Positions 8,340-11,889 of a stretch of DNA of 64,000 bases are shown piece after piece. The notes below the pieces were generated by a model. That model ran no database searches and had not been told where the DNA came from. It saw only the letters and a list, made by a program, of their open reading frames with translations. The first letter of the stretch is position 1. Every line of letters starts with the position of its first letter. The stretch spans positions 930,001 through 994,000 of the forward strand of contig NZ_VTWH01000001.1 of the NCBI RefSeq assembly GCF_008369445.1. The letters are read 5' to 3'. The position numbers and the translations under genes were made by a program. This stretch comes from Aureimonas fodinaquatilis (GTDB lineage: Bacteria; Pseudomonadota; Alphaproteobacteria; Rhizobiales; Rhizobiaceae).

Positions 8340-9137
8340 TTACTGATTCTGTGCCGGTGCAGGCTCAGCCGCTGGTGCTTCAGGTGCGGGCTCAGCCGCA
8401 GGAGCGGGAGTTGTCTCTGCAGGCTCAGTCGCTGCAGGAGCTTCCTGTGCAGGCTCAGTCGCCGCGGGAGCTTCCTGAGTTGGTTCAGTTGCTGGTGCCT
8501 GAGTTTCACCTGCGCCTGAGTCAGTTGTGGTGCCAGGCTCGGTTGAACCGTCAACCGGTGCGGCCTCTCCACCTTCAGCAGGAGCTTCTGCTTCCGGCTC
8601 AGGCAATGGCGCAGGGCTGTCCGACAGGGAACGCAAATAAGCAATCAGGTCAGCGCGGTCACCATCCCGGTTCACACCAGCAAAGCTCATTGCTGTGCCG
8701 CTGATATATTGACGCGGGTTCTTCAGGAAGTGATCCAGATGCTCATAGTCCCACGGCACTGTCTCGTCTTCGCTGAATTGCTGCATGGCTGCAGAGTAGG
8801 AGAACCCTTCATGCGAAGCGATAGGCCGGTTCAAAATGTCCCAAAGGTCGGGGCCCACAAGATTTGGGCCACCCTTTTCGGGGCTGTGGCACGACTGGCA
8901 GCGCTTGAAAATATTTTCACCTGCGGCTGCATCAGCATCCTGCATCAGCACTGCAATAGGCACCGCAGCCGGCGCTTCGGCTGCACCGCTTGCTACCTCG
9001 GCAACTTCAATAGCATAGCCAGGCGTTTCTGGGATTTCGGAATGGAAGATACCTTCGGCGAGAAGGCTACCGCCGAACAAAACGAAAATCGTGCCGAGTA
9101 CGGCACCGAAGATCTTGTTGGCTTCGAAAGGATTCAT
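8340..9137 (-). CDS. cycM: Membrane-anchored cytochrome c (CycM family) with long Ala/Pro/Glu tail
   Basis: A class I c-type cytochrome anchored by an N-terminal helix (MNPFEANKIFGAVLGTIFVL), facing the periplasm; such proteins carry electrons to cytochrome c oxidase. The heme motif CQSCH is at about 80-84 and the likely axial Met lies in GTAMSF (Met150). I chose the ATG at 9137 because MNPFEANKIF matches the usual CycM N-terminus; an in-frame ATG at 9167 adds ten residues and lacks a clear ribosome binding site. After the heme domain (ends about residue 177) comes a low-complexity tail of about 88 residues with repeats of TEPAQEAPAA, which the standard family does not need. The following kdsB-pheA and nudC genes match the usual rhizobial neighbourhood. 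Confidence 0.9.
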   Translation of the reverse strand: MNPFEANKIFGAVLGTIFVLFGGSLLAEGIFHSEIPETPGYAIEVAEVASGAAEAPAAVPIAVLMQDADAAAGENIFKRCQSCHSPEKGGPNLVGPDLWDILNRPIASHEGFSYSAAMQQFSEDETVPWDYEHLDHFLKNPRQYISGTAMSFAGVNRDGDRADLIAYLRSLSDSPAPLPEPEAEAPAEGGEAAPVDGSTEPGTTTDSGAGETQAPATEPTQEAPAATEPAQEAPAATEPAETTPAPAAEPAPEAPAAEPAPAQNQ

Positions 9138-9167
9138 GGAAAGGGCGGCTCCCTCATCAGCCGGCAT

Positions 9168-9409: not shown

Positions 9410-10987
9410 ATGCGTTCACTGGTTCTTATACCCGCCCGCCTTGCCTCCACACGTCTGCCGGACAAGCCTTTGGCCGATATTGCGGGCAAACCGATGATCG
9501 TGCGTGTGGCCGAGCGCGCCACCGCGGCTGAGGTGGGCCGTGTGGTTGTTGCCACAGATTCGCCGGAGATTTTGAAGGCGGTAACCGAGGCCGGCTTTGA
9601 GGCTGTACTGACCGGCAGCGGGCATCCATCCGGGTCAGACCGGGTGTTCGAGGCGCTCAATATCATCGATCCGCAGCGCGAATATGATACGATTGTGAAC
9701 GTGCAGGGCGATCTCCCGGCCATCGAGCCGGAGGCAGTGCGTGCAGTTTTGCGACCACTTGAAGATCCGGGATGCGATATAGCAACCGTTGCCGTGGCTT
9801 TTGAAGGCGGCAGCGACGCCAAAAACCCCAATGTTGTCAAACTGGTCGGATCGAGAATCAGTTCAAGCCGCCTGCGCGCTCTCTACTTCACCAGAGCCAG
9901 CGCACCATCTGGCGCCGGGCCGCTTTACCACCATGTCGGCATTTACGCTTATCGCCGTGCCGCGCTGGAGCGGTTTGTGGCGCTGGGTGCCTCGCCGCTG
10001 GAACAGCGCGAAAGCCTTGAACAGTTGCGCGCGCTTGAGGCTGGCATGCGAATCGACGCTGAGCTGGTGGACACGGTGCCTTTGGGAGTGGATACGCCTG
10101 CGCAGTTGGAAGAGGCGAGGGCACTTTACATTCCCGCGGGCGGCACCAACCGCATTTCATTCCAGGGAGAGCCGGGGGCAAACTCCGACACCGCATGCCG
10201 CAGCATGTACCCCCATATGAAACCTCTGCCATGTGACACGTTCGAGGAAGCGTTCAGCGCTGTCATCAAGGGTGACGCCGATCTGGCGATGATTCCGATT
10301 GAAAACACCATTGCCGGACGAGTGGCTGATATTCACCATCTGCTGCCGATTTCCGATCTGCGCATCGTGGCCGAATTTTTCCTGCCGATTCGATTTCAGT
10401 TGATGGCCAAGCCTGGCACGCGGCTGGAAGATATTCGTGAAGTGCACAGCCACATTCACGCTTTGGGCCAGTGCCGTGGAATTCTGCGGGCCAATGGTTG
10501 GCGTGGTGTCGTTTCAGCCGACACGGCGGGCGCGGCGCGAATCGTTTCTGAAATGCCGGAGCGCCATGTTGCGGCTTTTGCGCCGCGGCTGGCAGCAGAG
10601 CTTTACGGCCTGGAGATACTGGCGGAAAATGTCGAGGATGCCGAGCACAACACCACCCGTTTTGTGATCCTGTCTCGCAAGGGCAAGGAAGAGCGGGCGC
10701 TGTGGGCGCCGCACGGCCCGCAGGTGCTGACAACATTCCTGTTTGAAGTGCGCAACATTCCAGCCGCGCTTTACAAAGCGATGGGCGGTTTTGCCACCAA
10801 TGGCATCAACATGACCAAACTGGAAAGCTACCAACTGGGCGGCGCATTCACCGCCACCCAGTTTTATGCCGACATTGAGGGGCACCCTGATGATGAGGGC
10901 GTTGCCCATGCTCTGGAAGAGCTGGGCTTCTTTACCAAACGGCTGACCATTCTGGGCGTGTACCCTGCCGCCGGAAATCGCCCCTAG
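9410..10987 (+). CDS. kdsB-pheA: Fused CMP-KDO synthetase / prephenate dehydratase (KdsB-PheA)
   Basis: A single 525-residue reading frame with two complete, normally separate enzymes. Residues 1-240 are KdsB, which activates KDO with CTP for lipopolysaccharide inner core: [15 protein letters not shown] (nucleotide binding), [26 protein letters not shown] and the usual C-terminal end [15 protein letters not shown]. Residues about 246-525 are PheA, which converts prephenate to phenylpyruvate for phenylalanine synthesis: [36 protein letters not shown], the catalytic TTRFVILSR segment, then an ACT domain with [14 protein letters not shown]. The junction (about bases 10130-10147) has neither a stop for kdsB nor a start codon for pheA. 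In related genomes kdsB and pheA are adjacent separate genes. The start at 9410 follows AGGAAAC. Its TAG shares the bases CTAG with the converging nudC stop. Confidence 0.93.
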
Positions 10988-11889
10988 GTTTCGGCAAAAT
11001 GACGCAGCAGGTGGAAGGCGATGGCGTGCCGCATCGGCGCGCCAATGCCTTCGGGGTGGCTCTGCGCCAGAATGCTGACAACTTCGTCGCGGGTGAACCA
11101 GCGGCAGTCTTCCAGCTCCTCGCGGTCAAAGCGGATGTCGGTGCTGTGCGCCTCGGCCAGACAGCCAATCATCAATGTGCCGGGAAAAGGCCATGGCTGT
11201 GATGAGTGGTAGCTGACCTTGCCCGTGGCAATTCCCGCTTCCTCCATAACCTCGCGGCGCACGGCCGCTTCCAGCGTTTCACCCGGTTCAACGAAACCGG
11301 CCAGCGCTGAATAGGTGCCGGGGGCGAAATGCGGTTGGCGGCCCATAAGGCATTTGTCGCCCGAATAGACCAGCATGATGACCACCGGGTCGGTGCGCGG
11401 AAAATACAGCTCGTTGCAGCTGGTGCAGCGACGGCGATAGCCACCGCTTTCCGACAGGGTGTGAGAGCCACAGACCCCGCAGAAACGGTTGCGCCTGTGC
11501 CAGTGCAGAAAGTGCTGCGCCTGCGCAAGCTGTGCCTCGGTATCGGCATCCAGCACATGGCGCATGGCGGCGCTGCGCAGCTCCAGCAACAGGCTTTCGG
11601 GCCGGGCCTGCATGGTTTCAGGCAGCCGCGCCGCAATGCGCGGGGCCGTTTCCTGTGCAGTCCAGCCAAGAAGTACACCTTGCTCCGGTTCCGCCCCCAA
11701 AGCGCGGGCCTCAGTCACGGTGAACAAGGGCTGCGGGTTGGCCTCATCTCCCTTGCAGAGCCAGTCGCGCCCGAGAGCCAGATAAACACCTGCCAGCGGA
11801 TTGTTCAGCGCTGTTGTCAGGCTGGTATCCGTTCTCTTCTCACTGTCGCGCAGCAGGAGATTGCCGCAAAAAGCCGGGGAATCGGTCAT
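10984..11889 (-). CDS. nudC: NAD(+) diphosphatase (NudC)
   Basis: A 301-residue Nudix enzyme that cleaves NAD(H) to NMN(H) and AMP, and in some bacteria decaps NAD-RNA. The zinc ribbon is [22 protein letters not shown] (four Cys, about 138-161). It is followed by [13 protein letters not shown] and the complete Nudix box [20 protein letters not shown], then the NudC signature [13 protein letters not shown]. The ATG overlaps the stop of the HIT gene in an ATGA, so the two form one operon. The TAG stop uses the same CTAG as the converging kdsB-pheA stop. Confidence 0.95.

Follow-up and report, generated by a model that had tools for sequence, protein, structure and literature searches.

A KdsB-PheA fusion in Aureimonas joins two known enzymes of unrelated pathways in one reading frame

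Fusions that join enzymes of unrelated pathways are uncommon. KdsB (CMP-Kdo synthetase) and PheA (prephenate dehydratase) belong to unrelated pathways with no common substrate, product or intermediate, and both functions are normally indispensable. The described fusions that come closest to a KdsB-PheA protein are also two-enzyme proteins containing a dehydratase of the phenylalanine pathway, i.e., the P-protein (NF007910), in which chorismate mutase is fused to prephenate dehydratase (a fusion of this pair is described in an excerpt of PMC2700814), and the exported fusions of chorismate mutase and cyclohexadienyl dehydratase (in an excerpt of PMC10520331). Both of these join consecutive steps of one pathway, whereas KdsB-PheA joins unrelated pathways.

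The two halves also have stand-alone counterparts. With KdsB (NF003948, TIGR00466; structures 3k8d, 1gqc, and 2y6p), the fusion shares the profile nearly end to end, the CTP-loop and Mg residues, and the fold, whereas its C-terminus continues into a second enzyme and Gln at position 232 (Q232) replaces the usual Asp. With the stand-alone alphaproteobacterial PheA (NF008866; 6vh5; GqqA 7alz/7am0), it shares the profile, again nearly end to end, the TRF and LESYQ motifs, and the fold. However, the PheA part of the fusion has no start codon of its own and has the KdsB domain ahead of its N-terminus.

The fusion was found in the window, i.e., the whole stretch of 64,000 nucleotides of Aureimonas fodinaquatilis DNA that was analysed. 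The features of the locus are as follows.

8340..9167, minus strand: divergent gene upstream, named as a c-type cytochrome gene from its CxxCH motif
9410..10987, plus strand: kdsB-pheA fusion gene, ATG to TAG, 525 amino acids
9410..10129, plus strand: KdsB domain (CMP-Kdo synthetase), residues 1-240, assigned by the NF003948 match and invariant residues
10130..10150, plus strand: junction or linker, residues 241-247, irregular in the structure model between helix 230-239 and strand 248-252
10145..10984, plus strand: PheA domain (prephenate dehydratase and ACT), residues 246-525, assigned by the NF008866 match and likeness to 6vh5
Within the PheA domain: motifs TRF at residues 416-418 and LESYQ at residues 471-475
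10984..11889, minus strand: convergent gene downstream, named as a NudC-like Nudix gene from its sequence

The open reading frame at 9410..10987 on the plus strand was translated through 525 codons, and no internal stop was found. The first half matched the NCBIfam equivalog of KdsB, NF003948, at residues 2-240 with 381.8 bits (cut-off 281), and it also exceeded the cut-off of the KdsB family profile TIGR00466 (187.5 vs 155.2 bits). The second half matched the NCBIfam equivalog of prephenate dehydratase, NF008866, at residues 246-524 with 457.1 bits (cut-off 359). In Pfam search, CTP_transf_3 was found at 5-215 and PDT at 249-424. The ACT family was not called by Pfam at E 0.001, and the ACT region lies inside the NF008866 match and aligns throughout with 6vh5. 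The P-protein was rejected as an identity of this protein, i.e., NF007910 scored 129.2 bits vs the cut-off of 577 and was covered at profile positions 103-377 only, and the N-terminal half is KdsB. The observation made in an earlier note, a full KdsB at residues 1-240 and a full PheA at 246-525 in a single frame, is thus correct, with both equivalogs recognized and two full enzymes confirmed.

The linker joining the two halves has about eight residues. The junction DNA of A. fodinaquatilis at 10130-10160 has no stop and no in-frame ATG, GTG, or TTG, in agreement with what had been reported for this junction. The number of residues between R237 and R248 was 10 in 20 of the 21 genus genomes and 11 in the remaining one.

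In the genus, the fusion was found in every one of the 21 genomes examined. A stop-free match covered residues 1-525 in 20 genomes and residues 1-524 in one, and the other 20 genomes showed 66-80% identity to the fusion protein of the window. Genus assignment was based on the seven named members of this 21-genome group, which are all Aureimonas. Three of the 21 assemblies carrying the fusion are single contigs (G002, G007, and G009). The earlier note had named two findings that would speak against a fusion, i.e., a stop restored at the junction and close relatives with the genes apart. Neither was seen, the junction being stop-free in 21/21 genus genomes and separate kdsB and pheA genes being found in 0/21.

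Besides the fusion, a second KdsB-like match with 55% identity was detected in one genus genome (G005:C2:627687-628415), for which a role in the capsule is a guess. Weak partial second KdsB-like matches were found in G009 and G014. In the pair G006/G015 (L128:1001-2629 and L163:4822-6450), the PheA half of the fusion is strongly diverged (62-63% identity). It has a seven-residue insertion and retains the TRF motif.

Outside the genus, the fusion was searched for in 1,029 of the 1,050 genomes surveyed (G000-G1049, no repeats), the other 21 being those of the genus. The draws held 151 genomes of the family (109 genera), 397 of the order, 385 of the class, and 150 of the phylum. No match of any kind was obtained for one genome of the family draw, eight of the order draw, and 31 of the class draw. 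The matches listed for these 1,029 genomes, drawn at ranks from family to phylum, included none that was both full-length and free of stops. The lists are limited by score, so that a fusion scoring as two low pieces could escape; they included 113 full-span same-frame matches outside the genus (27 + 59 + 27 new), and all 113 hold at least one stop. The phylum draw added no further full-span same-frame match among the matches listed. Loci with both genes were compared at 163 places, i.e., 34 fused (from the 21 genus genomes, with repeats) and 129 separate (with repeats).

Suspects outside the genus, i.e., partial matches that were stop-free or had a long frame, were fetched and checked, and none of the 24 (10 + 14) was a fusion. 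Of the first ten, G609 (stop-free at residues 134-520) has no kdsB adjoining pheA. The frames of kdsB and pheA differ in G841 (stop-free at residues 180-521), G749, G924, G127, and G754. The two genes share a frame in G641, G033, G163, and G442, but one or two stops intervene. Among the 14 further suspects, nine have kdsB and pheA in different frames, and the kdsB match is absent from the fetched stretch in five (L167, L170, L175, L179, and L180). The listed open-frame lengths were disregarded; for G641 at least, the listed value (626) was not a stop-free length, translation giving 305. Two records named Bacillus subtilis SK6B4 (L063) and Frankia sp. RB7 (L122) showed kdsB-pheA loci with 64% and 59% identity to the query protein. 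These records look mislabelled or contaminated because the loci are of rhizobial type.

In the literature, no description of a KdsB-PheA protein was found in the open-licence full texts searched, which agrees with the earlier note, whose author knew of no such enzyme. KdsB-PheA was rated as an undescribed cross-pathway pairing of known enzymes.

The genes around the fusion were compared with those at L151-L160, ten loci in which kdsB and pheA are separate and which belong to other genera of the same family. Homologues of an ABC solute-binding protein and of the divergent cytochrome c were found upstream of the separate kdsB in all ten. Nudix and HIT homologues were found downstream in six of the ten, and none were found within the stretch examined in the other four. 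That kdsB and pheA are adjacent but separate genes in related Rhizobiales, as had been supposed, was therefore seen directly, and with the same upstream neighbours. Because these neighbours are the same beside the separate genes, the fusion arose in place. Where the genes are separate but stay in frame, kdsB ends in its stop, a short spacer follows, and pheA begins with an ATG. The 129 separate loci have 29-243 nt between the matched domain ends, with a median of 48, vs 12-27 nt in the fused loci. A small change in the ancestor of the genus would have erased the kdsB end along with the pheA start and joined the two frames. As the exact event we infer a small deletion that took away the stop codon of kdsB together with the start codon of pheA, which fits the shorter gap.

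Some features of the flanking genes were also observed. The cytochrome c protein encoded at 8340-9167 has an Ala-Pro-Glu-Thr-rich tail of roughly 90 residues, C-terminal to the haem domain. In the genome of the window, the last four bases of the fusion gene (10984-10987) overlap the convergent Nudix gene. In four loci of the genus (L161-L164), about 390 bases or more separate the matched ends of the two genes.

The number of origins was examined with trees. By FastTree with 74 rows, 19 fused genes formed one clade and the G006/G015 pair was placed outside. The IQ-TREE tree of both domains with 44 rows, for which 23 outgroup rows were taken from the 53 in the 74-row tree, showed the same 19 in one clade with G006/G015 outside, so that two state changes were needed, and 28% of its 200 bootstrap trees needed just one change. 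In the quick tree of KdsB only, all 21 fused genes were placed together (SH-aLRT 91, not starred). In the quick tree of PheA only, G006/G015 were joined to the separate-gene row L157 on a starred branch, which gives two changes. Both L157 and the G006/G015 pair have long branches. The AU test did not reject a single clade of the 21 fused genes (p 0.358 with both domains, 0.374 with PheA). Near the junction, Gln at position 232 was found in 21/21 fused proteins vs 1/52 of the separate KdsB, and 46/52 of the separate KdsB have Asp at this position. Two origins of the fusion are possible and are favoured by the PheA tree. However, one origin for all 21 genomes is preferred on sequence grounds because Q232 and the length of the junction are shared.

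Both halves are very probably functional, i.e., the protein is predicted to produce CMP-Kdo from CTP and Kdo and to dehydrate prephenate. Exactly one PDT-family match and exactly one CTP_transf_3-family match were found in the genome of the window, which is 98% complete, and each of them is the fusion. With no other gene of the PDT or CTP_transf_3 family, the fusion should supply both enzymes. This genome also has a match to KdsA and one to the WaaA-type transferase family. In the PheA half, T416, R417, F418, and the LESYQ stretch are invariant in the 21 genus genomes, the TRF being the catalytic motif of the prephenate dehydratase family. R10, T14, R15, K19, D101, and D228 of the KdsB half are likewise invariant in 21/21. 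For Aquifex KdsB, the roles of the loop residues in CTP and metal binding and the Mg-binding residues D95 and D219 are given in an excerpt of PMC3149649, and D101 and D228 would be their counterparts when mapped via the QGD and GVD motifs. Of the 210 possible pairs, 16 were chosen for pairwise dN/dS, which ranged over 0.06-0.23 in KdsB and 0.03-0.16 in PheA; the ratio of the pair L001-L002 is rough, as its dS is near 1.9. Judged from these ratios, purifying selection is acting on both halves.

The structure of the fusion was modelled by AlphaFold2 with a mean pLDDT of 91.3 and a pTM of 0.67. For the structure alignment, 124 of the 131 references were used, three KdsB and four PheA rows having been dropped. 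Both halves were modelled with confidence and resemble solved structures, the first those of KdsB and the second those of PDT. Of these, 6vh5, a PDT with phenylalanine, comes closest (chains with 67-68% identity and TMt 0.91-0.93). As the pTM is low relative to the pLDDT, the orientation of the halves is suggested to be unsettled. In the model, KdsB closes with a helix that ends at 239, and PheA opens with a strand from 248. In the excerpt of PMC3149649 on Aquifex KdsB, the chain end at 220-234 is placed in the CTP-binding lobe, and the lobe of residues 100-210 forms the homodimer. Because the chain end sits in the CTP-binding lobe of that structure, PheA at the C-terminus of KdsB need not block the KdsB dimer. 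The earlier concern that so short a linker would not suit two oligomeric enzymes is weakened by the Aquifex chain end, which in that excerpt lies outside the dimer lobe. GqqA, a relative of PDT, is also a dimer according to an excerpt of PMC8192741.

The locus is best explained, with good confidence, as a real bifunctional gene that was fused in the ancestor of the genus and gives one chain with two independent enzymes at 1:1, without channelling. The product would be an intact CMP-Kdo synthetase connected, by a linker of about eight residues, to a prephenate dehydratase that is likewise intact and includes the ACT domain. From the conserved residues and the fold, each half would fold and act on its own substrates. 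Channelling is not expected, since the two enzymes have no common substrate or product. Their production would be forced to 1:1, with equal amounts of both if the chain stays whole, and the dimers of both enzymes would be linked into a larger assembly. It is conceivable that such assemblies of linked dimers are closed particles or chains. The fusion may persist because it does little harm and because separation would need a new stop, a new ribosome site, and a new start.

A second explanation, considered unlikely, is that the one reading frame gives two products, i.e., an internal start or proteolysis of the linker yields a separate PheA and the fused chain is minor. The linker is irregular in the model, which would suit proteolysis. 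For an internal start, candidates are an ATG at residue 213-215 with SD-like GAGG or GGAGG in 9/21 genomes and a GTG at 223 with an SD-like sequence in three of the 21. However, the ATG falls in a stretch of KdsB that equals the consensus of the alignment, which is made mostly of separate-gene proteins, and the SD and ATG letters are explicable by coding because KdsB keeps this stretch anyway. Nearer to the junction, at residues 234-260, an in-frame start is absent in 20/21 genomes, and the sole ATG, in L010, has no SD-like site. A PheA bearing a KdsB tail via internal initiation is thus possible but not indicated.

It is very unlikely that the fusion is regulatory, with phenylalanine bound to ACT altering, by way of the short linker, the activity or assembly of KdsB and tying outer-membrane synthesis to the supply of aromatic amino acids. 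The Kdo and aromatic pathways both begin with PEP-using homologous enzymes, which would suit such a tie. The nearest solved PDT, 6vh5, was crystallised with phenylalanine, the residues of the ACT motif are retained in 21/21 genomes, and the length of the linker is nearly invariant. Of the fused proteins, 19/21 share K334, E344, E446, and K510 in PheA, which separate PheA seldom has, and positions 127 and 136 of KdsB carry two further substitutions. However, the four PheA substitutions are absent from the G006/G015 pair, and a pTM of 0.67 gives no firm arrangement of the domains. The region of the ACT motif also resembles that of 6vh5, an unfused protein, and is like that of a separate rhizobial PDT, and the earlier idea that phenylalanine sensing by ACT reaches KdsB is speculation only. 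If it were true, synthesis of the lipopolysaccharide core in Aureimonas would follow phenylalanine supply. Last, an artefact of sequencing or assembly, or a decaying pseudogene, is hardly credible, as no point supporting it was found, while 21/21 assemblies of different species agree on the fusion, dN/dS is low in both halves, and the genome of the window has no other gene of either enzyme's family.

A bifunctional KdsB-PheA gene has meaning for annotation and for the biology of the genus. Annotation under one enzyme name alone would be incomplete. Together with Q232, the stop-free junction offers a simple candidate marker for the genus. The fusion is also a natural experiment, in which unrelated enzymes would be held at a forced 1:1 stoichiometry with their oligomers linked, and the question it puts to Aureimonas is whether such a link is neutral or useful.
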